DNA from: Thermoanaerobaculia bacterium
Lineage (GTDB): Bacteria > Acidobacteriota > Thermoanaerobaculia > Multivoradales > J023
Direction of reading: 5' to 3'
Assembly: GCA_030431255.1 (NCBI GenBank)
Contig: JAUIJL010000012.1
Coordinates: 62,001 to 126,000, forward strand
DNA: 64,000 nt
Shown here: in pieces, positions 41,474 to 53,320 of the stretch
How positions within the stretch are numbered: the stretch's first letter is position 1
Layout: each line of letters opens with the position of its first letter
The notes under the pieces: generated by a model
What the model was told of the DNA's origin: nothing
The model's input: only the letters and a program-made list of their open reading frames with translations
The model's database searches: none
Made by a program: the position numbers and the translations under genes

Positions 41474-43230
41474 TCCGAAACGCCGTGCCGTCCCTGGGGC
41501 TTCACCTACGACTCGCCTTGGCCTTGCTCACCCTCCTGGTGATCGCCGGCTCGGTGAACCTCGCCTCGACTCTGATCATGAGCCGGCAGTATTTGAATGA
41601 GGTCACCCAAGTGGCCAATCGGGGTCTGGCCCGTCAGATTGCCGAGGCCAAAGCCGAGCGCTTGGTCACTGACGACGGCAGGTTGTCGACCCGCGGGCTC
41701 GAAGAGCTTCTCCATTGGATGATGGTGGTGCATCCCGGACCCCACTTCTATGTGCTCGACCTGCGCGGAGAGATCATCGCCTTCGACCCCACAGCCGGCG
41801 AGCCGACCAGGGATCAAGTAGCCCTGGCTCCCGTGCGGCGCTATTTGGACCGGGAACGCCTCGACCAACATCGAGCTCGGCGGGCTCCCGTCGAGCCCCA
41901 CCATCCCGAGCAAACGGCTAGCGGCAAAGGGCCGATCAAAACCATCTTGGGAGACGATCCCCGAGCCCCCGGAAAACCGACCGTCTTCTCCGTCTCACCG
42001 CTTCCTGCCGAAGGTGAGCCCATGGGTTATCTCTACATTGTGCTGCGCCCGCAGTCCATGGAGACCCTGAGCGAAAGCCTGCGCGGCAGCTACATTCTCC
42101 AGCTCACCGTCCGCAATGCCGCCGCCTACCTCCTGGTGACTCTGGTGCTGGGTCTGGTGGTCTTCTACCGCTTGACCCGCCCCCTGCGGCGATTGGCCGA
42201 GCGAGTCGACCGCATGAGCCCGGCTATTCCGACCCACTCAGACGACCCGGCTCCTCCTCCGGACACTCCCCCCGTCCCGGACACCGCCACCCCGGATGCT
42301 CCCGGCAAAAGATTCGTCGGCGACGAGGTGAAGTGGTTGGAGCAACGGTTCGACGCCATGGGCGAGCGCCTGCATCGGCATCTCGACGAGGCCGAAAAGC
42401 TCGACCGCCTGCGCCGAGATCTCTTCGCCAACGTCTCCCACGACCTGCGCACCCCGATCGCCACCTTGCGCGGATATTTGGAAACGCTGGCGTTGGGCGA
42501 TGAAGCCCTGACCCCGGAGCAACGGGCCGAATATCTGGCGATCGCTTTGCGCCACTCCGAGCGCCTCAGCCGATTGGTCAACGAGCTCCTGGAGCTCTCC
42601 AAGCTCGACAGCCACTCCGTGGCGCCGAATTTGGAACGATTCCAAATCGGCGAGCTGATCCAAGACAATACCCAGCGATTCCGATTGCGAGCGGAGAAGA
42701 TCGGCGTGGCGCTCAAGGCGGACATCAACCCCGACGCCCCGGCGGTGCTCGCGGACTTGGGTCTCATGGAACGGGCCTTAGAGAACCTCATCGGCAACGC
42801 CCTGCGACACACCGATGCCGGCGGCTCGGTGACCGTGGCGGCCCGTCCCCACGGCGACCGCCTCCGCATCAGCGTCGCCGACACGGGATGCGGCATCGCT
42901 GAGAAGGACCTGCCCCATATCTTCGAGCGTTTCAACGGCTCGCGGCATCTCTCCAGCGGGCGCTTGAGCACCGCCGGCACCGGCCTGGGCTTGGCCATCA
43001 CCCAACGGATCGCCGAGCTGCACCGCAGCGAGCTGAAAGTGGAGAGCGTGGTCGGCGAAGGCACTACCTTCTCATTCGAGCTGGATATCTCGCCCCAGAC
43101 CCGGACCAGCGGTTTGGGAAGGGTGACCCGACGCACCCGCGAGTGGTTAGACTCGCTGCGAACCAAAGACCGTCTGCGCCCGTTTACAAACCAGGGCGGC
43201 GGCGCGGGCCAACCGACTCCTCAGCCGTAA
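41470..43230 (+). CDS. phoR: PhoR-like sensor histidine kinase
   Basis: A 586-residue sensor kinase. First membrane helix about 9-30 (LALALLTLLVIAGSVN), a periplasmic segment of about 170 residues, second helix (AAAYLLVTLVLGLVVFY), HAMP-like linker, then HisKA with phospho-His324 (FANVSHDLRTPIATL) and HATPase (ENLIGNALRHTDAG, DTGCGIAEKDLPHIFERF, GTGLGLAI). The start is best placed at TTG 41470, overlapping the regulator's TGA; GTG 41485 is an alternative. It ends inside the last codons of the convergent pstB copy (10-bp overlap). The linker between HAMP and kinase is Pro-rich (PAPPPDTPPVPD). Confidence 0.88.
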   Translation: MIRNAVPSLGLHLRLALALLTLLVIAGSVNLASTLIMSRQYLNEVTQVANRGLARQIAEAKAERLVTDDGRLSTRGLEELLHWMMVVHPGPHFYVLDLRGEIIAFDPTAGEPTRDQVALAPVRRYLDRERLDQHRARRAPVEPHHPEQTASGKGPIKTILGDDPRAPGKPTVFSVSPLPAEGEPMGYLYIVLRPQSMETLSESLRGSYILQLTVRNAAAYLLVTLVLGLVVFYRLTRPLRRLAERVDRMSPAIPTHSDDPAPPPDTPPVPDTATPDAPGKRFVGDEVKWLEQRFDAMGERLHRHLDEAEKLDRLRRDLFANVSHDLRTPIATLRGYLETLALGDEALTPEQRAEYLAIALRHSERLSRLVNELLELSKLDSHSVAPNLERFQIGELIQDNTQRFRLRAEKIGVALKADINPDAPAVLADLGLMERALENLIGNALRHTDAGGSVTVAARPHGDRLRISVADTGCGIAEKDLPHIFERFNGSRHLSSGRLSTAGTGLGLAITQRIAELHRSELKVESVVGEGTTFSFELDISPQTRTSGLGRVTRRTREWLDSLRTKDRLRPFTNQGGGAGQPTPQP

Positions 43231-44024
43231 CGGCCCTCGATGTAATCCGCGGTCTCTTGGCACTTCGGGGTCACGAACATCTCCGCGGTCTGGCTGTGCT
43301 CAATCACCTTGCCGAGCAACATGAAGATGCATTCATCACTGGCTCGGCTCGCCTGGGCCATGTTGTGGGTGACGATCAAAATCGTGTATTGCCCACGCAG
43401 CTCCCAGATCAGCTCCTCCACGGCCTCGGTGCCCTTGGGATCCAAGGCCGAGCAAGGCTCGTCCATGAGCAGCACCGAGGGTTTGACCGGCAACAATCTG
43501 GCGATGCACAGCTTCTGCTGCTCCTCGAGAGCCAAACCCACCGCCGGACGATCCAACCGGTCCTTCACCTGATCCCACAGCAGCACCTGCCGCAGGGAGC
43601 TCTCGACGATCTCGTCGGCGGCGGAGCGGCTCAGCCGCTTGCCCCGTTCTTGGTGGGTGCGATAGCCGAACAGAACATTGTCCCGAATGGAAAGCGGCAG
43701 CGGGTTCGGCCGCTGGAAGACCATGCCCACCTGCTTGCGCACCTGCACCGGCTCGACGTTCTCGGCGTAGACGTCGAATCCCAGAACCTCGATCGAGCCC
43801 GTGGTGCGGACATAACCCAGCCGTTCATTGATGCGATTGACGCTGCGCAGGAAGGTGGATTTGCCGCAACCGGACGGTCCGATCAAGCTGGTGATGATGC
43901 CTTGCTTGATCTCCAGGTCGACATCGAAAAGGGCCTGAAAGGTGCCGTACCAAAGGTTCAGCTTACGAGTTTCGATCGCCAACGCTGTTGTCGGCTCCGC
44001 GGGCAAAGCAGTGGATTCAGCCAA
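43221..44024 (-). CDS. pstB: PstB-type ATPase with degenerate ABC signature
   Basis: A 267-residue PstB family protein. Walker A (GPSGCGKST), Q-loop (MVFQRPNPLPLSIRDN), Walker B (VLLMDEPCSALDP) and switch His (IVTHNMAQ) are intact. The signature motif, LSGGQ in normal PstB, reads LALEEQ (AVGLALEEQQKLCIARLL). The start is TTG 44024, with GGAGGGG upstream and an 8-nt overlap with the preceding pstB copy; no ATG or GTG fits. Last gene of the pst operon. It probably forms a heterodimer with the other PstB to drive phosphate import. Confidence 0.85.
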   Translation of the reverse strand: MAESTALPAEPTTALAIETRKLNLWYGTFQALFDVDLEIKQGIITSLIGPSGCGKSTFLRSVNRINERLGYVRTTGSIEVLGFDVYAENVEPVQVRKQVGMVFQRPNPLPLSIRDNVLFGYRTHQERGKRLSRSAADEIVESSLRQVLLWDQVKDRLDRPAVGLALEEQQKLCIARLLPVKPSVLLMDEPCSALDPKGTEAVEELIWELRGQYTILIVTHNMAQASRASDECIFMLLGKVIEHSQTAEMFVTPKCQETADYIEGRYG

Positions 44025-44820
44025 AACGCCCCTCCACGTAGTCTCGGGTGCGGGGATCTTTCGAGTTGCCGGTAAAGAGATCTTCGGTGTCGGCCACCTC
44101 CACCAGCTCACCGGTCAAGAAAAACGCGGTGCGATCCGCCAATCGCCGGGCCTGCTGCACCAGGTTGGTCACCAACACGATGGTCATCTCGGAGCGCAGC
44201 TCCTTCAGCACGTCCTCGATGCGCATGGTGGTCACCGGATCGACGGCAATCGAGAATTCGTCCAAGAGCAGGATCTCCGGGTCTTGGCTGAGGGCCCGCG
44301 CGATGGTCAGTCGCTGCTGCTGACCGCCCGAGAGCAAGCTGCCCAAGGAGCCCAGGCGATCCTTGACCTCGTCCCACAGCGCGGCCCGGCTCAAGCAGCG
44401 CTCGACGATTTCGTCGAGCTTGGCCTTGCTCTTGATGCCGCGCAGGCGCGGCGACAAGGCCACGTTGTCGTAGATGGTCATCGGCAAGCCCACCGGCAGC
44501 GGGAAGACCACGCCGATCCTCCGACGCAGGGCATAGACATTGCGCCAGGACCGAACCGGTCGGCCGTCGATGGCGATGTCGCCTTCGATGACCATATTCG
44601 GGGTCATGTCGCTCATCCGATTGAGGGCGCGCAAAAAAGACGTCTTACCCGAGCCGGCCGGTCCGATGATGCCGAAGATTTCGTTCTCGTAGACATCGAA
44701 GCTCGCCCCGGAAAGCGCGACCTTGTCGCCGTAGCGGATGGTCAGATCCCGCACGGAGATCTTGCCGGCACCGGTGCCGGCTGGATCCTCAGCTCGGGTC
44801 TCGGCAGTCTCGCTCACCAC
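44017..44820 (-). CDS. pstB: PstB-type ATPase lacking Q-loop Gln and switch His
   Basis: A 267-residue PstB family protein. Walker A (GPAGSGKTS) and signature LLSGGQQQRLTIARAL are intact, as is the Glu of Walker B (ILLLDEFSIAVDP). The Q-loop, usually VFQ-x-PNPFPMSIYDN, reads VFPLPVGLPMTIYDN, lacking Gln. The switch His position reads LVTNLVQQ, Asn instead of His. It overlaps pstA by 7 nt and the second pstB by 8 nt. Its losses are complementary to those of the partner. Confidence 0.85.
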   Translation of the reverse strand: MVSETAETRAEDPAGTGAGKISVRDLTIRYGDKVALSGASFDVYENEIFGIIGPAGSGKTSFLRALNRMSDMTPNMVIEGDIAIDGRPVRSWRNVYALRRRIGVVFPLPVGLPMTIYDNVALSPRLRGIKSKAKLDEIVERCLSRAALWDEVKDRLGSLGSLLSGGQQQRLTIARALSQDPEILLLDEFSIAVDPVTTMRIEDVLKELRSEMTIVLVTNLVQQARRLADRTAFFLTGELVEVADTEDLFTGNSKDPRTRDYVEGRFG

Positions 44821-45683
44821 TTCTTCTTACCCCGCAAATAGACCCGAAACGCGATCGACACCGCGTTCATGCTCAACACCAACGAGATCAACACCAGCGC
44901 CACGCCGTAGGGCAGGGCTTCGGGTACCTCCGGGACTTGGGTCGAGATCACGAAAAGATGCAGGGACAACGCCATGGTTTGATCCCAAACGGTTTCCGGT
45001 AGAAAGGGTAGGAAGAAGGCCGCGCCGGTAAACATGATCGGCGCGGTTTCTCCGGCGGTTCGGGAGACCTCGAGAATCACCCCGGTAAGGATGCCGGAAA
45101 GGGAATTCGGCAACACCACTTTGCGGATGGTTTGCCAGCGGGTGGCCCCCATGCTCCAACAGGCCTCGCGAAAGGCCTGGGGCACCGCTTGCAACGCCTC
45201 GCGGGTGGAAACGATCACCACCGGCAACGCCATCACCGCCAGGGTCAGGCTGGCGGCCAAGATGCTGGTGCCGAAGCGGAAGAAAATCACGAACGCGCCG
45301 ACCCCGAAGAGGGCATGCACGATCGACGGCACGCCGGCCAAATTGATTACCGCCAAGTTGATCGCCCGGGTCAGCCAATTGTCGGGGGCGTATTCGGAAA
45401 GGTAGAGGGCCGCGGCAATGCCGATCGGCACCGAGGCGATCAACGCCACCACCACCAACCAAATGGTGCCGACGAAGGCCGGCAGGATGCCGCCCGCGGT
45501 CATGCCGTTGGTGGGCTCGGTGAGCAAGAAATCCATCGAGATCATCGGCCCGCCTTTGTAGACCAACATGGCGAGAATGACCACGACGGGCAAGATCAAT
45601 AGGAGTGTCATGGCCAGGAAAAGGGTCCTGAATAGACGCTCCCTGCGTTGATTCTGAAGATTGAGCTCGGTCGCTTCAAACAT
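44814..45683 (-). CDS. pstA: Phosphate ABC-transporter permease PstA
   Basis: A 289-residue permease with about six helices. The BPD-transporter family motif is the cytosolic EAA-like loop (REALQAVPQAFREACWSMGA then TRWQTIRKVVLPNSLSGI). The N-terminal opening (FLAMTLLLILPVVVILAM) is usual for PstA. With PstC it forms the phosphate channel. 23-bp gap after pstC; 7-nt overlap with the next pstB. Confidence 0.92.
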   Translation of the reverse strand: MFEATELNLQNQRRERLFRTLFLAMTLLLILPVVVILAMLVYKGGPMISMDFLLTEPTNGMTAGGILPAFVGTIWLVVVALIASVPIGIAAALYLSEYAPDNWLTRAINLAVINLAGVPSIVHALFGVGAFVIFFRFGTSILAASLTLAVMALPVVIVSTREALQAVPQAFREACWSMGATRWQTIRKVVLPNSLSGILTGVILEVSRTAGETAPIMFTGAAFFLPFLPETVWDQTMALSLHLFVISTQVPEVPEALPYGVALVLISLVLSMNAVSIAFRVYLRGKKKW

Positions 45684-45706: not shown

Positions 45707-46630
45707 CTATGGACGCTGTTTGCGAACGCCTCGAACCACGAGGTCGGCGGTGAGGTTGATCACGAAGGTCACGATGAAAAGAAAGATGCCCAGGGTGAAC
45801 AGGGCTTGGTAATGCTCGGAGCCGGCGGCGGTCTCTCCCAGCTCCGCGGCGATGGTCGCGGTCAAGGCGCGCACCGAATCGAAGGGGCTGGTGGGCAGGT
45901 TGATCGAGTGGCCCGAGGCCATCAGCACCGCCATGGTTTCACCGAATCCGCGGCCCACACCGAGCAGAATCGCCGCCACCAAACCGTTCTTGGCGGCGGG
46001 CAGGACGACCCGGAAGATCACCTGCCAACGGGTAGCTCCGAGGGCCTCGGCGGCCTCGCGATAGGTGTCGGGCACCGCCTTGAGGGCATCTTCCGCCAAG
46101 GTGGTCATGATCGGCGCGGCCATCAAACCCAAGATGATGCCCGAGTTGAGCACGTTGAGGCCGACGGGAACATTGAAAAGCTCGATGATCAAGGGGTTCA
46201 TGATCGACAGCCCGATGAAACCCCACACCACCGACGGGATCGCCGCCAGCATCTCCACCAACACCTTCAAATACTCGCGGGTTTTTCCGGTGGCGAACTC
46301 ACCGATGTAAATCGCCGCGCCGAGGGAGAACGGCACCGCGACGATCATGGCCAAACCGGTAACGCTCGCGGTGCCCGCGATCAAGGCCAAGGCGCCGTAG
46401 GTCGGGTTGTGGCTGGAGGTCGGCCGCCACCTCGGAGAAGCGAAGAATTCGCCGAAATCCAAGGTGCTGACAATAAAGCCGTAACCTTCCTTGGAGATGA
46501 AGATGAAGATGCCGATGATGAAGAGGATACCGGAAATACCACCGACAAAGACCAGGCTTTGCACCGCGCGGTCGACCCACCATGCCGCGTCTCTACGATC
46601 TGCCGAATGGGACATCTCAGCCGTTTCCAT
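45707..46630 (-). CDS. pstC: Phosphate ABC-transporter permease PstC
   Basis: A 307-residue permease (from ATG 46630; ATG 46615 is nearly as likely, and the frame is open to 46660). Six or more helices and the coupling loop EDALKAVPDTYREAAEALGA then TRWQVIFRVVLPAAKNGL are visible. The segment FASPRWRPTSSHNPTYGALA is a PstC-type periplasmic loop. Overlaps the phoU fusion gene by about 14 nt with the chosen start. Confidence 0.9.
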   Translation of the reverse strand: METAEMSHSADRRDAAWWVDRAVQSLVFVGGISGILFIIGIFIFISKEGYGFIVSTLDFGEFFASPRWRPTSSHNPTYGALALIAGTASVTGLAMIVAVPFSLGAAIYIGEFATGKTREYLKVLVEMLAAIPSVVWGFIGLSIMNPLIIELFNVPVGLNVLNSGIILGLMAAPIMTTLAEDALKAVPDTYREAAEALGATRWQVIFRVVLPAAKNGLVAAILLGVGRGFGETMAVLMASGHSINLPTSPFDSVRALTATIAAELGETAAGSEHYQALFTLGIFLFIVTFVINLTADLVVRGVRKQRP

Positions 46631-47690
46631 CGCCGACGGCGGACTCGCCGTGCAAGACATCCATCAGCTCGGTGAGGTGGGACCGCAGCTGAGCCAAGGC
46701 CTCTTCCGGGTCGTCGGAAATCTGCCATTGGCGGCAGACCGAGCGGAATGGCACCGAGCCGTCGAGATGTTGACGGGGATCGCCGTTGAGACCGATCAGG
46801 AGATGCAAGGACGTCAGCTCCTCAGAGGTCAGGTCGAGGGCAGAGGGTGCCAAATCGCCGTGATCCAAGCCCTTGGCGCGCATGACTTCCAACCACCGGG
46901 GATCGACCTTCTCGGCCGGGCTCCAGCCCGCGCTGGAATATTCCCCGAATTCATCGAAGCCTTTGCGGGCGAAGGCCTCGGCCATCAGGCCGGCACCGTC
47001 GTTGCGCTCGTCGAAAAAGAGAATCCGGTACTTCTTGGCCTTTTTGGTCTCGCCGGCCACGGCGAAAAGGGTCTCCTCGCAGAGGTTCTTCGCCTGGTCA
47101 GCCACCCGTCCGAGCCGATTGAAAATCACCAGCAGGGAAAATAGAGACTTGAGATCCTCACCGCCTTTTTCACCCAGCTCAATGAGGTCGGCAAAGACCG
47201 TGCGAAAGCTGGTTTCGATGGGTTTGGCCATGGCGATGGTGCCCCGAGCGAGCTCGGCGTTGCCTTCCACGAAGGCCTTGATCGCCTGAGCGAACATGCG
47301 ACGGGAGGGCTCTGCCATGAGACCGATATCCCGAGCGATACGCTCCGGCGGTGGGCCCGGCAGCTGCTCCGTGTGTCGCCCCAAGCTGACCGCGTAATCT
47401 CCGACCCGCTCGATCTCCAGGGTCAGGCGCATCACCGACGACACGAAACGCAAATGACCGGCGCTGGGAAGGTGCCGAGCCACGAAAGCATGGCATAGGC
47501 GATCAATCGATCGAACCTCGCGGTTGATCCTCAAATCCCCCAGCACCACCTCGGACGCCAGCTCCTGATTGTGGGTCAAGACCGCGTGGACCGAGTCCTC
47601 CAAAGCCCGCTCCACACGATCACCCACCGTCTGGATGCGGCGCCGGATCTCTTTTAGATCCTGCTCCAACCTTTCCTCATAATGGCTCAT
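46617..47690 (-). CDS. phoU: PhoU fused to a catalytically dead LMW-phosphatase-like domain
   Basis: A 357-residue protein. Residues 1-215 are PhoU (two three-helix repeats; for example LTLEIERVGDYAVSLGRHTE and VIFNRLGRVADQAKNLCEET, the E-x2-R-x2-D metal-binding motifs). Residues about 221-340 resemble low-molecular-weight phosphatase/arsenate-reductase proteins (MAEAFARKGFDEFGEYSSAG, WLEVMRAKGLDHGDLAPSAL). The active loop, normally C-x-GN-x-CR, reads DERNDGA, so Cys and Arg are gone. PhoU normally represses PhoR signalling at Pst. The added domain may sense or bind a phosphate-like ligand. Located between pstS and pstC. Confidence 0.85.
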   Translation of the reverse strand: MSHYEERLEQDLKEIRRRIQTVGDRVERALEDSVHAVLTHNQELASEVVLGDLRINREVRSIDRLCHAFVARHLPSAGHLRFVSSVMRLTLEIERVGDYAVSLGRHTEQLPGPPPERIARDIGLMAEPSRRMFAQAIKAFVEGNAELARGTIAMAKPIETSFRTVFADLIELGEKGGEDLKSLFSLLVIFNRLGRVADQAKNLCEETLFAVAGETKKAKKYRILFFDERNDGAGLMAEAFARKGFDEFGEYSSAGWSPAEKVDPRWLEVMRAKGLDHGDLAPSALDLTSEELTSLHLLIGLNGDPRQHLDGSVPFRSVCRQWQISDDPEEALAQLRSHLTELMDVLHGESAVGDGNG

Positions 47691-47729: not shown

Positions 47730-48731
47730 TCAGCCTTGGGGGTCGGCCGAGTCGGCCTCCGAGCTTTCGGTCGTCTCACCTTCGGTCATTTCGCCTTCGG
47801 CGTCTTCGGCCGGAGCCTCGGCCGCGGCATCGCCGCCACAGCTCACGGGTTTAGCCGGCGCATAGCCTTTTTCCACGATGATGCATTGACCGACGTCGGA
47901 GAGCACCCAATCGAGATAGTCCTTCACGATGCCCTGGGGCTCGCCGGAGGTGTACATGAAGAGGGGGCGGGCGATGGGATAGGTGCCGTCTACCGCCGTC
48001 GCCACCGACGGGGCGACGCAATCGGCACCGTCCGGGCTGGAGATACACGGCATTTTGACGTGCTCGCCGGCGTAGGCCAAACCGCTGTAGCCGATGGCGC
48101 AGGGGGTGTGCTCCACCAAGTCCACGACGTCTTTCGAGCCGTGCATATCGCGGGTGCCCAAGCGGAAATCTCTCTGCTTGCCGAGCACCGCTTCTTGGAA
48201 ATACACATAGGTGCCGGAGTTGTTCTGGCGGGAGACCACCACGATCTCATCGCTGTCGCAGCCGGGCACTTGCACCCCGAGGTCGCTCCACTTTGCGGCC
48301 GTGCCGCCCTCACCGTAGATCTCGGCCAGCTGGGCGAGGGAAATGGCGTCCATGGGGTTGTCCGGGTGCACAAAAACGGCCAGAGCGTCGAAGCCGACCA
48401 CGTGCTCCAACGGGTCGTGGCCGTTGGCCCGAGCCTGCTCGAGCTCTTTGTCTTTCATTTTGCGGCTGGCGTTGGCCAAGTCCACCGTGCCGTTGATCAT
48501 CGCGGAGATACCGGTGCCGGAGCCACCGCCCGACACGGCCACCGCCACCTCCGGATTGACCTCTTTGTAGGCTTCCGCCCACGCTTGGGCCACGTTGACC
48601 AGGGTGTCGGAGCCTTTGTTCTGAATGACTTTTCGAGAGCTGGAATCGCCGGCTTGGCCTTGGTCGGCGGGGCGTCCGCAGGCCACGGGCAGGATAGCCA
48701 CGAGGGCGATCAACATAAGCGTCTTGCGCAT
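47730..48731 (-). CDS. pstS: Phosphate-binding protein PstS
   Basis: A 333-residue periplasmic binding protein. N-terminal leader (LIALVAILPVAC), with Cys-18-type lipoprotein signal though the lipobox is imperfect. Phosphate-binding family blocks are NKGSDTLVNVAQAWAEAYKE, SGGGSGTGISAMINGTVDLA and RQNNSGTYVYFQEAVLG. A Glu/Asp-rich tail (about residues 300-333, EGEMTEGETTESSEAD) is unusual. First gene of the pst operon. The 134 bp upstream contain no PHO box I can recognise. Confidence 0.92.
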   Translation of the reverse strand: MRKTLMLIALVAILPVACGRPADQGQAGDSSSRKVIQNKGSDTLVNVAQAWAEAYKEVNPEVAVAVSGGGSGTGISAMINGTVDLANASRKMKDKELEQARANGHDPLEHVVGFDALAVFVHPDNPMDAISLAQLAEIYGEGGTAAKWSDLGVQVPGCDSDEIVVVSRQNNSGTYVYFQEAVLGKQRDFRLGTRDMHGSKDVVDLVEHTPCAIGYSGLAYAGEHVKMPCISSPDGADCVAPSVATAVDGTYPIARPLFMYTSGEPQGIVKDYLDWVLSDVGQCIIVEKGYAPAKPVSCGGDAAAEAPAEDAEGEMTEGETTESSEADSADPQG

Positions 48732-48865: not shown

Positions 48866-51301
48866 TCAATCCAGCTCGAAGAGACGAGACATCAACAGCT
48901 GAAGTGGAAACCGCCCCAGGCTTCCCGCGACCACCGCGCTCTCGTTGAATGCTCGGACCGAATCGGCGCTCAGTCCTTCTCCCCAAATCACCACCGGCAA
49001 CGGATCCGCGGCGTGCTGACCGCTTTCGGAAAGGGTCGCATGATCCCCCGAGACGGCGATCCGCAAGGGCCCCTCCCACTCCGCGAGCAACCCACCCAAG
49101 GCTTGGTCGATCTGCTCCAAGAACCGTGCTTTGAGATCGGGACGCCGATCGTGGGCGGCAATATCCGCTCCCTTCACGTGCACGATCACCAGATCCTTTT
49201 CCGCCAATGCGGCTCTGGCTTGCTGGAGCTTCAGGTCCAGGTCCGTATCGAGATTGGCGGTCATGCCCGGCTCCTGCACGATTTGGGCCCCCAGCCACTT
49301 GGCCAGCCCGAGCACCGTGCGATCCCCGCCGATGCAAGCCAGGCGCAAGGCTTGCCCCCGAACCTCCAAGGGGCTCAACAGATGAATTCGTCCGGCGCCG
49401 CGGCTCAAGATGCCGTTGGCCGGCGGCAAGCCGTCTTCCACCCGGCGCCGGTTGATCGGATGCTCGGACAGAACCTTTCTCGCTTCGAGCTCGAAGAGAG
49501 CCAACAGGCGCGCGGTCAACACGGCCCGGGGGTCGTGGGGATCCACCGGGCGCGGCACTTGGGCCCGACACGGGGCGGAGCCGTCACCGGGATCGCTGCC
49601 GAGAATCGCCGAGCTCAGCCCCTCGCCTCGCAAGACCACGGCCAGGCGATGCTCTGTCGCCGCCCGAACCAAAATCCGCACCCCCTCGAATCGCCCCCGG
49701 GGCAGGGTCATCCGATCCAAAGCCTTGGCCAGCTCTTCGGCATCCTGCCGAATGCGCCCGGCTCGACGGTCGAGCACCGTGCCGTCTTTACCGAAAGTGG
49801 CGAAATTGGCCCGCAGGGCGATGTCGTGCATCTTCAATTTCAGGCCCGCGCCCACCGCCTCCACGGGACCTCGCTTCAGGGCCGCCGGCGATTGTCCGAA
49901 CAGCGCCAGGCTACCGGCCGCGGTGTCGGGCACCACCCCCGGAGCCACCGGATCCGCCAAACCCACCTGCCCTTCGGCGGCCAGACGATCCAGATTCGGC
50001 GTATCCGCCGCCTCCAAAGGGGTTCGTCCACCGAGGGCCCGCACCGGGCGGTCGGCCAGCCCGTCGATGATCAGCAGCAGGGTCGGAATCCGCCGAATCT
50101 TCGAGGTCACCTCGAACAACCCCTTGGGCAGCTGCCGACGCAGCAGGGTGGTAATCACCCGCAAAGACTCTCCCGCCGCGTCCCCACCAGTGGTGCTGAT
50201 CAGAGGAATGTCCTCGGACTCCGCTTGCTCGAGCATGAACTCATGGAGAATGCGAATCGATTCAAAGCTCTCGATATATCGCTCCGCGACCCGCTGCCCT
50301 TGACGAGTGCGGGCGAAAAATCGGCTGCGGTGGGTCTCCGCGTCGGGGGTCGCGAGCATCAGCGGCACTTGATAACAAGTGCTGTCGAGGTCCGGGAACG
50401 GCACCACCGGCGGCAAGAGGTGAACCCCTTCCACCAAAATGCTTTGACCTTCGGCCACCGCCCGCTCCACCACCGCCTTCACCCCGACTCCGATTCGCAC
50501 GGCCTGCTCCTGGAAGGCGTTCAGCAACGCGCTCGACGGATCGTCGTCTTCTTCATAAAGCGGTAGCTGACTGGCGGCAAAGCTCGAGCCGTGGATCACC
50601 GGCAAGATTTGGGGCGAGAAGACCATGCGCATAACCTGGCGGATGGTGTCGGTGGCGATCACCCGGTAGATCCGCAACATCGGCGCCAGCTCGAGAGCCA
50701 GGGTCGACTTGCCGGTTCCGCTCGCCCCGCCGATATAAATCGCGATCGGTTTGGGCAGATGGTGCACCCGACGCACCATGCGATAGCGGTTGGCCGCCTC
50801 TTTCCCTTCCACCCGCTGCAGAAGATCGGCGACCCGGAGCGCCAAATCACCACTATCCAGCCGCTCGATGCCCTCTACTCGGAGCTCGCCCTCCAGGGTC
50901 ATCACATGGCGATAAGCGCGATCGAAATCCAACCCGGCACCGCTCAAGCTGCGGGCGAGCAAGCCGCGGGAAAACGGCTGATGGTGATCACCCTTCGTCA
51001 CCACCACACCGGCCGGCGGCATCGCCGACGCCCCCAGAGAAACCTTCTGAGCCGCCTCGGTGCCGAAAGATTCCTCCGTCACCTCGAGGATCAAATCCCA
51101 AAGCTCCTCAGAAGACACCTCCGCCTGATCAGCGAGCCGACCCTTCACCGCATGGGCCACGGCGTAGCCGTCATCGAATTCCAGACCCCGCTGCATCAGC
51201 TCGTGGGTGATCACCCCGCGCAGAAACGGCTGACGCCCCTGGGGCGACACCACCGTCAACGAGGACTTCCGTCGGTTCTTTGCTGAAATCTTCTTGGCCA
51301 T
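48866..51301 (-). CDS. Fused 2-phosphoglycerate kinase and archaeal-type phosphoglycerate mutase
   Basis: An 811-residue bifunctional protein. Residues 15-175 hold two ATP-cone-like regions (QPFLRGVITHELMQRGLEFD and QPFSRGLLARSLSGAGLDFD). Residues about 180-400 are the P-loop kinase of 2-phosphoglycerate kinase (YIGGASGTGKSTLALELA). Residues about 408-811 are ApgM-type cofactor-independent mutase (LLLIIDGLADRP, VHVKGADIAAHDRRPDLKAR, AVSGDHATLSESGQHAADPL). The first activity makes 2,3-bisphosphoglycerate and the second interconverts 3- and 2-phosphoglycerate. At the mutase nucleophile loop the expected PGSDTAH reads PDTAAGS, Thr replacing Ser. Start at ATG 51301 with GGAG 5 nt upstream; the frame continues to 51415 without an RBS. 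Confidence 0.85.
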   Translation of the reverse strand: MAKKISAKNRRKSSLTVVSPQGRQPFLRGVITHELMQRGLEFDDGYAVAHAVKGRLADQAEVSSEELWDLILEVTEESFGTEAAQKVSLGASAMPPAGVVVTKGDHHQPFSRGLLARSLSGAGLDFDRAYRHVMTLEGELRVEGIERLDSGDLALRVADLLQRVEGKEAANRYRMVRRVHHLPKPIAIYIGGASGTGKSTLALELAPMLRIYRVIATDTIRQVMRMVFSPQILPVIHGSSFAASQLPLYEEDDDPSSALLNAFQEQAVRIGVGVKAVVERAVAEGQSILVEGVHLLPPVVPFPDLDSTCYQVPLMLATPDAETHRSRFFARTRQGQRVAERYIESFESIRILHEFMLEQAESEDIPLISTTGGDAAGESLRVITTLLRRQLPKGLFEVTSKIRRIPTLLLIIDGLADRPVRALGGRTPLEAADTPNLDRLAAEGQVGLADPVAPGVVPDTAAGSLALFGQSPAALKRGPVEAVGAGLKLKMHDIALRANFATFGKDGTVLDRRAGRIRQDAEELAKALDRMTLPRGRFEGVRILVRAATEHRLAVVLRGEGLSSAILGSDPGDGSAPCRAQVPRPVDPHDPRAVLTARLLALFELEARKVLSEHPINRRRVEDGLPPANGILSRGAGRIHLLSPLEVRGQALRLACIGGDRTVLGLAKWLGAQIVQEPGMTANLDTDLDLKLQQARAALAEKDLVIVHVKGADIAAHDRRPDLKARFLEQIDQALGGLLAEWEGPLRIAVSGDHATLSESGQHAADPLPVVIWGEGLSADSVRAFNESAVVAGSLGRFPLQLLMSRLFELD

Positions 51302-51517
51302 GGGGGCTCCGTCTAAGTCCGAGCTGAATTCGCCTTCTCGTGCTTGGGCAGAGCCAAGGTTAGGACCTTCGAACCCAAGACCGCAAGCAGCAGAGCCGGC
51401 CGGAGCTCGCTGCAAATGTGCTCAGCCGTGCCTCACGGCAACACCCGGAATCGGTGCTCAGAGCAGCCACGGGAAACCGTGCAGCCGACAGGCTCACGTG
51501 GTAATCTTCTCAGTCTT

Positions 51518-53320
51518 ATGTCCCAAGCCCATGATCTGCCCGTCGACCTCGAAAAGGTCAGCGCCCTCGCCCGCGAGCTCGCGGACATCGACATGGTGCA
51601 AGAGGCTGCCCACCTATTTGAGATGGCGCTTCGGTTGGATCCCCACAATCGGGGCATTCAGCTCGGCTTGGCCAAGATCCGCAATCGCCTCAAACACGAA
51701 GCGGGAGCCCAGCAAAAAAACGCTGAGTCGGCGCTCCGTGAGAAGCTGCGGCGAAATGCCATCGACGCATGCCACTTCGCCGGCTTAGGCGCCTTGTATC
51801 GCGATCGAAAAAACAAAAAGCTGGCCCAAGAATGCGTCGAGATCGCCTTGGAAAAGGAGTCGATCCATCCTCAGGCCCACTTGCTCCAAGGCCGCATTCT
51901 TTTCGAGGAGAAAGACTACGACGGAGCCCGGACCGCCCTGCGAGCCGCGTATCGATTCAACCCGTTCGACCGGTCGATCGCCGAGCTTCTCGGACGGGTC
52001 GAGCGGGAAAGGGAGCATTATCTCGAAGCGCTCGAGGCCACCATCGACGCCTTTCTCCTGCTGCCCGAGGAAGAGCACGAGGACGGGCGGGTCTTAAAGG
52101 AACGCATCCGCGAGCTCAAAAAACTGCTCGACTACAGCGGTGATCAAATCGTCGACATCTTTCACCAGCGCCAAGAGAAGCTGCAAACGGACTTCGATCG
52201 GTTGGAGCTCCAGCGGGAACGCTATCTGAACGAGAAGGCCTCTGGCGTCTCTCCGTCGACCGCCGACGAAGCCGAGAGCGGTCGCATCGTCTTGGCGGTT
52301 CGCCTCCGCCAATTCGATATTTGGAAGCGGCTCAACGACGAGCACGTCTTTCAGATCACCCGAGTGGTTTTTCAAGAGCAATTCCCCGCCGAGACGGTGC
52401 TGTTCAAGCAAGGGGATTCGAGCTACGACCTCTACCTGATCGAAGAGGGCGAGGTGATCATCCGTCGCCCGACCCACTACGGCAATTTCGAGCTGGCGCG
52501 TCTCGGCCCCGGGGCGCTGATGGGCGAGATCAGCTTCATTTCCAGAGTCGAGCGATCCGCCGACGGCATCACCGCTGCCGACACCAAGATTGTGCGCATC
52601 GACGCCAACGGCCTCGACTCTTTGATCGAGGAACGGCCCGACCTCGGGGTCAAGATCTACATGAGCTTTTGGCAGGGCTTGGCCCTCAAGCTGCGGGGCT
52701 CCAACGAGCAGCTGCGGACCTTCTTCGATACCCAAGAGGACTCGAAGAAGCTCGACGAGCTTCGTCAGGCGGCCCAGGGTGATCAAATCGACGGTGCCTC
52801 GTCCGACACCATGGAGGTGCTTCAAGAGCAGGGCCTGAGCGGAGCGGAGCTGCAAACCTTGGCGGATTTCTCCAACGTCAAACGGTATCCCGGCGGCACC
52901 TTTCTCTTCCACGAGGGGGACCCCGGCACCGAGATGTACGTGGTGTTGGAGGGCAAAGTGATGATCAGCAAATTTATTCCCGGCGGCGGCGAGGAGGCTC
53001 TCGCCATTCTCGAGCGGGGCGATTTCTTCGGGGAAATGGCGTTGATCGACAACGCCCCTCGCTCGGCGGACGCCAAGGCCTTCCAAGGCCCGGCCACGGT
53101 CGTGGCCTTTGATCAGCAGACATTGCGGGAAGTGGAAATGTCCGATCCGAAAGCCTCGGTCGACTTCATCCGCCTGCTTTGCCAGCTGATGTGCCAGCGG
53201 CTGCGGGAGATCGATGAAAAAGTCACCTCGTGGCGCATCATGTCCGGTCAACGACCGGACGAAGACGGCAAGCACCAAGAAACCAGCTTCGAATTCCCAC
53301 CGGCGTTGGCCGAAGCCTGA
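51518..53320 (+). CDS. TPR protein with two cyclic-nucleotide-binding domains
   Basis: A 600-residue soluble protein. N-terminal TPR-like helices about 1-190 (DMVQEAAHLFEMALRLDPHN, ACHFAGLGALYRDRKNKKLA, DYDGARTALRAAYRFNPFDR), a coiled linker, then two cNMP domains at about 280-395 (VLFKQGDSSYDLYLIEEGEV, LGPGALMGEISFISRVERSA) and about 455-575 (FLFHEGDPGTEMYVVLEGKV, LERGDFFGEMALIDNAPRSA). The second has the phosphate-binding cassette GEMAL-x5-PRSA, the first GEISF-x6-RSA. No DNA-binding or kinase domain. ATG 51518 is the likely start; the RBS is weak. Divergent from the glycolytic fusion, 216 bp apart. Confidence 0.88.
   Translation: MSQAHDLPVDLEKVSALARELADIDMVQEAAHLFEMALRLDPHNRGIQLGLAKIRNRLKHEAGAQQKNAESALREKLRRNAIDACHFAGLGALYRDRKNKKLAQECVEIALEKESIHPQAHLLQGRILFEEKDYDGARTALRAAYRFNPFDRSIAELLGRVEREREHYLEALEATIDAFLLLPEEEHEDGRVLKERIRELKKLLDYSGDQIVDIFHQRQEKLQTDFDRLELQRERYLNEKASGVSPSTADEAESGRIVLAVRLRQFDIWKRLNDEHVFQITRVVFQEQFPAETVLFKQGDSSYDLYLIEEGEVIIRRPTHYGNFELARLGPGALMGEISFISRVERSADGITAADTKIVRIDANGLDSLIEERPDLGVKIYMSFWQGLALKLRGSNEQLRTFFDTQEDSKKLDELRQAAQGDQIDGASSDTMEVLQEQGLSGAELQTLADFSNVKRYPGGTFLFHEGDPGTEMYVVLEGKVMISKFIPGGGEEALAILERGDFFGEMALIDNAPRSADAKAFQGPATVVAFDQQTLREVEMSDPKASVDFIRLLCQLMCQRLREIDEKVTSWRIMSGQRPDEDGKHQETSFEFPPALAEA

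Follow-up and report, generated by a model that had tools for sequence, protein, structure and literature searches.

A 2-phosphoglycerate kinase-family domain fused to an ApgM-type mutase domain with threonine at the nucleophile position, encoded beside phosphate-uptake genes in a Thermoanaerobaculia bacterium

Two known enzyme families, the archaeal-type phosphoglycerate mutase ApgM and 2-phosphoglycerate kinase (2PGK), are joined in a single gene on the minus strand of the DNA analysed here, a 64,000-nt window from a Thermoanaerobaculia bacterium (GCA_030431255.1, contig JAUIJL010000012.1, positions 62,001 to 126,000). The fusion resembles ApgM (TIGR00306; 2zkt, 3idd and 3kd8) in the fold of the whole domain, the presumed metal ligands and most other conserved polar positions, but it has threonine in place of the nucleophilic serine, mostly in a PDTAAG loop, together with a fused or paired 2PGK and a phosphate-gene setting. 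With the 2PGK models NF003259 and NF008994 it shares a P-loop kinase, a putative N-terminal cone region and long profile matches, whereas it scores below their equivalog cut-offs and carries two cone-like repeats and a C-terminal ApgM domain. Among PMC records naming 2-phosphoglycerate kinase, mostly titles and beginnings of abstracts, none evidently concerned a link to Pst or PhoU or a fusion, and neither the threonine variant nor the close pairing nor the location among phosphate genes appeared in them.

Cofactor-independent phosphoglycerate mutase (iPGM) acts via phosphoserine (PMC2964296), and the initial annotation had pointed to threonine nucleophiles elsewhere in the alkaline phosphatase superfamily, for which several cases were found. 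Phosphopentomutase of Bacillus cereus shares the metalloenzyme fold and, according to PDB titles, has Thr85 at the phosphorylated place, a residue also discussed for substrate binding (PMC11641776); it differs from the fusion in its substrate and in a Z of about 20, compared with 46.8 for ApgM. Ectonucleotide pyrophosphatases/phosphodiesterases have a threonine nucleophile (PMC11677397), and in the alkaline phosphatase SPAP, whose catalytic residue is Thr89, the ligands are likewise of types D, T, D, H and D, H, H and follow one another along the chain as in the fusion, as judged from their description (PMC3145672). Unlike most fusion loops, in which it is lost, SPAP, a phosphatase, has a histidine at +4. 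On the kinase side, plant LPA1 is a 2PGK homologue likewise tied to phosphorus storage, but it has been proposed as an inositol-monophosphate kinase, and no ApgM half is mentioned in the excerpted text of that source (PMC4844318).

The fusion gene and its threonine

The gene is one open frame of 811 amino acids (ATG at 51301, stop at 48866) with GGAG five bases upstream of the ATG, and the encoded protein carries two ATP-cone-like repeats, then a domain of the 2PGK family and finally a full ApgM-type mutase domain (Table 1). The AlphaFold2 model of the whole protein had a mean pLDDT of 90.5 and a pTM of 0.71. The initial annotation had read cones, a P-loop kinase and an ApgM-like metalloenzyme in a single frame, and NCBIfam profiles and fold comparison bore this out for the kinase and the metalloenzyme. 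A chance joining or a frameshift was rejected because both halves are in frame without a stop in the loci of 29 relatives (L003-L031, some ending at a contig edge). The halves also share one frame in most of 59 further loci (L054-L112), the exceptions being L111 and L112, with separate genes, and L100, with a frame change within the kinase; the contigs of L103, L104, L107, L109 and L110 carry just one half. Eighteen plasmid records matched the fusion, none over 80% of the query.

The mutase half passed the apgM subfamily model TIGR00306 (329.1 bits, cut-off 320, residues 408-807) and matched Pyrococcus horikoshii ApgM (2zkt_B) with a Z of 46.8 and an rmsd of 2.4 over 369 residues. The cut-offs of the ApgM equivalog PRK04024 (354.9 vs 489 bits), the phosphopentomutase model PRK12383 (17.3 vs 254) and the PhpG phosphonoformyl transferase model (233.3 vs 545) were not reached. 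In phmmer searches, DPVAPGVVPDTAAGSLALFG aligned gap-free with the corresponding loops in three archaeal ApgM chains of known structure, which come from two species, placing T460 on the serine of GSDT(A/S)H. This alignment, together with the GTDIGH and GTDVGH loops of the unfused relatives L111 and L174, fixes the register: the serine-to-threonine change proposed in the initial annotation is real, and a serine in another register was rejected. In the AlphaFold2 model a helix starts at T460; nucleophiles of the superfamily lie at helix starts (PMC11677397).

Threonine was found in 56 of the 57 loops that could be read in a set of 67 related loci. For 54 of the 56 the contig also shows the kinase; the contigs of two others (L103 and L104) end before it. 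The sole serine loop of this set, L120, belongs to an ApgM about 4.6 kb from a 2PGK and not adjacent to it. Stand-alone ApgMs fetched from the window's order had serine in 20/20 cases, mostly as PGSGPGHLALFGY (20 were fetched; 36 genomes of the order have such matches). The threonine is kept wherever the mutase domain is fused with or adjacent to the kinase, so a sequencing error or a chance substitution was rejected.

In most members the loop reads PDTAAG in place of GSDTAH, and both the Asp and the His of SDTAH are gone. Because the loops of L111 and L174 retain this Asp and His besides the threonine, the Ser-to-Thr change probably preceded the remodelling of the loop. The variants form an evolutionary series, from the canonical serine through threonine in a near-canonical loop to threonine in a remodelled loop, and from separate genes to a fused gene, along which a mutase may have taken on a new role. 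A tree of 47 domains, without archaeal ApgM and with its root set by hand on four distant ApgM-like rows, grouped the 21 threonine domains in one clade with a support of 0.73.

We take D413, D713, H717, D753, H754 and H763 to be the metal ligands and the pocket positions to be the phosphoglycerate site. All six ligand positions are retained in the 21 aligned threonine domains, apart from a single residue that the truncated row L108 lacks, and among the other conserved positions checked in the clade one, Asn629, varies. Since the presumed ligands are kept and threonine nucleophiles are known, a working two-metal phosphotransfer site is likely from the alignment. As a separate observation, the 20 stand-alone ApgMs of the window's order (L121-L140) carry Glu where the fusion has His717.

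In the N-terminal part, the first and second repeats match each other (blastp 8e-7; hhalign 98.7%), indicating that a cone-like unit was duplicated. No ATP-cone entries occurred among the 50 structure rows listed for the kinase model, which does not argue against a cone. Of 117 solved chains at E<=1, none of the best 60 was named 2PGK, so that a solved 2PGK structure may still exist. The first cone is missing from the fusions of 19 related loci (L080-L091, L093, L095, L097, L099-L101 and L105), a clade that we take to be sponge symbionts.

Distribution and phosphate-gene setting

By record title, the hosts are mostly Acidobacteriota, including many Thermoanaerobaculia; such titles are unreliable: L061 bears the title "Deltaproteobacteria" but comes from G010, a genome of the window's order. 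A 2PGK match (E<=1e-10) was present in 37 of the 59 genomes of this order, exactly the 37 fusion carriers, and no second 2PGK besides the fusion was found in the 59 at the same threshold. An even sample of the phylum gave matches in 13/149 genomes at E<=1e-90. Unfused neighbouring pairs occur in L111, in L112 together with four other members of its class, and in L174, where the gene order is reversed. In the class of L112's genome (planctomycete), 6/17 genomes matched at E<=1e-70, five of them strongly and with threonine, and G070 more weakly and with serine. The fusion in L106, whose record title gives Deltaproteobacteria, branches outside the unfused pairs; therefore, fusion may have happened twice, or the genes may have split. 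The genome of L106 is the only one with a match among 57 of its order. Controls from Thermus, Deinobacterium and Methanocaldococcus also matched the 2PGK search, and both halves have been named as archaeal-like genes common to Thermus and Deinococcus (PMC1274311).

The initial annotation overlooked that the fusion lies in a phosphate-uptake operon, in which the genes 3' of it run in the order pstS-phoU-pstC-pstA-pstB-pstB. A pst set also adjoins the fusion, upstream, downstream or divergently, in L037, L067, L068, L069, L076, L077, L098 and L106, with pst-phoU divergent from the fusion in L106. Relatives of Na/Pi cotransporters adjoin L057, L065, L072, L110, L111, L156-L159 and L174, PhoU adjoins L109, and CHAD and SixA-like genes adjoin further fusion loci. 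Separate gene pairs stand with Pst or Na/Pi genes in all five strong-match loci of the planctomycete class. CHAD proteins bind polyphosphate granules, and SixA, PPX and CHAD genes are grouped in a figure legend of the same source (PMC10892726).

In total, a marker (Pst, PhoU, Na/Pi cotransporter, CHAD or SixA) lies within 8 kb in 28 of 67 loci (the window, L034, L037, L054-L112, L156-L159 and L174), and in all 28 within 1.7 kb; five of the 67 hold one half only, of which L104, L109 and L110 count as positive. No marker was found within 8 kb in the 20 control loci with Ser-ApgM (Fisher 2.0e-4 against 28/67) or within 2 kb in 10 GpmI controls, which were chosen from 17 GpmI genomes; several control loci have short flanks. 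The proportion was 28/48 when the 19-locus clade without the first cone, which holds all near-duplicates, was left out, and 19/41 among loci with at least 2 kb of flank on both sides. PhoU lies within 10 kb of the fusion in 5/37 genomes (0.19 expected; the PhoU counts and genome sizes behind expected values were entered by hand), and CHAD lies near it in 4/31 (0.12 expected), three of the four in one family. The Fisher and binomial values overstate independence, as the loci and genomes are related. Neighbouring genes were assigned from tblastn matches to one or two queries for each family (E<=1e-12; for PstB, >=60% identity), and Pfam was used to check some of them, L057, L065, L072, L109 and L110 among these.

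Two further observations concern the pst genes. The two consecutive PstB-like ATPase genes of the window (43221-44820) both recur in the pst sets of the eight relatives listed above. The PhoU copy in L106 (5704-6771) is of the size of the window's PhoU and aligns with it over nearly the whole length.

Candidate functions

To our knowledge, phosphate sensing and storage in bacteria beyond polyphosphate, and the intracellular cue of PhoU/Pst, are open questions. A pair of central-carbon enzymes in phosphate-uptake operons suggests 2,3-bisphosphoglycerate as a concrete candidate metabolite open to assay. We favour the reading, at a probability of roughly 0.42, that the fusion serves phosphate homeostasis by making and turning over this compound through phospho-Thr460 chemistry, with the pool as a store or status metabolite; phosphate homeostasis is preferred to a glycolytic switch because the gene sits in a phosphate-uptake operon. 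Specifically, the kinase half, judged by its family, would convert 2-phosphoglycerate and ATP to 2,3-bisphosphoglycerate, the reaction described for the archaeal enzyme (PMC10690619). The ApgM half, with Thr460 as the nucleophile on an intact two-metal site, would bind phosphoglycerates and move or remove phosphate through a phospho-threonine, most likely discharging 2,3-bisphosphoglycerate. Both halves would then set the size of a pool serving as a phosphate store or phosphate-status metabolite, the tandem ATP cones might act as a nucleotide sensor, and the outcome would be a tunable pool coupled to phosphate supply. These reactions, the metabolite and its regulation by phosphate are plausible predictions from sequence.

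Several reports are in line with such a role. Cyclic 2,3-diphosphoglycerate, derived from 2,3-diphosphoglycerate, has been suggested as a phosphate and energy store (PMC10690619), a role other than thermoprotection has been supposed for 2PGK in mesophilic methanogens (PMC2686161), and overexpression of a rice 2PGK homologue raised total seed phosphorus (PMC4844318). More tentatively, some bacteria (by title, Acidobacteriota, Planctomycetota and one deltaproteobacterial genome) may keep 2,3-bisphosphoglycerate or its product as an intracellular phosphate reserve or signal, which a dedicated pair of 2PGK and Thr-ApgM, fused at least once and perhaps twice, would charge and discharge; the pair would be inherited together with Pst, PhoU, Na/Pi and polyphosphate-linked genes.

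A number of findings weigh against the phosphate-homeostasis reading. No marker was found in 39 of the 67 loci, including all 19 of the clade without the first cone, and the uptake and PhoU markers alone reach 21/67 within 8 kb and 20/67 within 2 kb. Two of the 10 GpmI controls also have a marker within 8 kb (the nearest at 2.2 and 4.6 kb). When 16 upstream stretches were scanned for the E. coli Pho box consensus, nothing scored above the maximum of the shuffles. The GTDIGH and GTDVGH loops of the two unfused relatives would suit a mutase too. Finally, the kinase half is under both 2PGK equivalog cut-offs and the mutase half under that of PRK04024, so the substrates may differ.

The loops of these two relatives, near-canonical apart from the threonine, bear on an alternative in which the Thr-type mutase half would convert 3-phosphoglycerate to 2-phosphoglycerate for the kinase, and 2,3-bisphosphoglycerate would be formed from 3-phosphoglycerate and ATP for phosphate storage or signalling. 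The positions conserved in ApgM, which we take to line the phosphoglycerate pocket, are retained, and with PRK04024 the unfused mutase of L111 gives 435.6 bits (cut-off 489). However, such a channel appears unlikely, because another iPGM is already present in 34/37 fusion genomes (9 GpmI, G000 included, and 25 stand-alone ApgM, three in pieces) and the loop is remodelled in most members. In addition, a Ser-to-Thr replacement caused a 4000-fold loss of kcat in E. coli alkaline phosphatase (PMC11677397). The second mutases also exclude the fusion as the sole glycolytic mutase in these 34 genomes; no complete second mutase was found in G006, G021 and G050, the last having only a fragment at a contig edge. 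Supply of 2,3-bisphosphoglycerate as the cofactor of the cofactor-dependent mutase (dPGM) is unlikely as well, since dPGM (E<=1e-20) was found in 0/23 fusion genomes searched; it occurred in 2/40 genomes of the order searched, neither with the fusion.

The equivalog scores would suit a still less probable alternative, in which both halves would act on a different phosphorylated acid or on a polyol phosphate, as 2PGK relatives do (the mevalonate-3-phosphate 5-kinase model; plant LPA1, proposed as an inositol-phosphate kinase, PMC4844318). The kinase half scored 269.3 bits with NF003259 (best stretch residues 99-369, cut-off 343) and 276.2 bits with NF008994 (residues 2-383, cut-off 603), with weaker matches to NF008996 and NF038358, and the NF003259 cut-off was reached in 0/59 genomes of the window's order. 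On the other hand, the unfused kinase of L111 reaches 325.1 bits, near the 2PGK cut-off of 343, and the positions conserved in ApgM are kept.

Two remaining alternatives appear highly improbable. Phosphopentomutase is primed by glucose 1,6-bisphosphate, and by analogy kinase-made 2,3-bisphosphoglycerate would phosphorylate Thr460 and turn a cofactor-independent mutase into a bisphosphate-primed one; phosphopentomutase has the same fold (3twz, Z 20.3, 220 residues, rmsd 2.9) and solved entries are titled as phosphorylated or as T85E/T85Q variants. To a similarly small degree, the ApgM half might bind a phosphoglycerate and control the kinase or PhoU/Pst without turnover, as the tandem ATP cones and the PhoU operon setting could suggest. 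Against this, the threonine and the six presumed ligands are kept in the 21 threonine domains, although an inactive domain should lose them.

Feature coordinates and other neighbouring genes

Table 1. Positions in the window of the fusion gene, its parts and the neighbouring genes
Feature	Position	Strand	Evidence
2PGK-ApgM(Thr) fusion gene	48866..51301	-	811 aa, ATG start; NCBIfam profiles and AlphaFold2 model
First ATP-cone-like repeat, aa 13-89	51035..51265	-	similar to second repeat; no match in Pfam search of window protein; same strand/helix order in model
Second ATP-cone-like repeat, aa 98-181	50759..51010	-	PF03477 E 0.055 (below cut-off); 8.5e-10 in relative L111 (above cut-off)
2PGK-family P-loop kinase domain, aa 182-392	50126..50758	-	profiles; model vs solved kinases: NMP-kinase/gluconokinase-like fold, best Z 15.6, 169-175 residues, rmsd 2.9-3.1
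Walker A GGASGTGKST, aa 191-200	50702..50731	-	sequence
ApgM-type metalloenzyme domain, aa 405-811	48869..50089	-	profiles, phmmer, fold comparison
Nucleophile loop GVVPDTAAGSLALFG, aa 455-469	49895..49939	-	phmmer alignments, relatives' loops
Thr460 codon, place of ApgM nucleophile Ser	49922..49924	-	alignment; opens a helix in model
Asp413, presumed metal ligand	50063..50065	-	invariant in alignment A1
Asp713, presumed metal ligand	49163..49165	-	invariant in alignment A1
His717, presumed metal ligand	49151..49153	-	invariant in alignment A1
Asp753-His754, presumed metal ligands	49040..49045	-	invariant in alignment A1
His763, presumed metal ligand	49013..49015	-	invariant in alignment A1
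pstS-type phosphate-binding protein	47730..48731	-	TIGR02136 235.7 bits, over cut-off 206.6; 135 bases past the fusion's stop
phoU with C-terminal low-molecular-weight-phosphatase-like part	46617..47690	-	PF01895 6e-26; PF01451 5.8e-4 (below cut-off); TIGR02135 128.2, just below 130.25
pstC	45707..46660	-	TIGR02138 272.9 bits, over cut-off
pstA	44814..45683	-	TIGR00974 266 bits, over cut-off
pstB-like ATPase 1	44017..44820	-	TIGR00972 293.4 bits, best model, below cut-off 343.2
pstB-like ATPase 2	43221..44111	-	TIGR00972 323 bits, best model, below 343.2; true start probably inside the frame
Divergent neighbour, TPR and two cyclic-nucleotide-binding domains	51344..53320	+	domain profiles

Relatives of the divergent TPR and cyclic-nucleotide-binding gene adjoin the fusion in 4/20 extended loci (L035, L036, L041 and L043). 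In L048-L051 and L053, five loci from the genus of the clade without the first cone, a small gene lies 3' of the fusion, and its L048 copy matches SpoU methylase. In addition, a CHAD-domain gene stands beside a ParA/MinD-like ATPase gene near the fusion in L034 (4427-7074), with relatives in L038, L042 and L044, and this pair might position polyphosphate granules.

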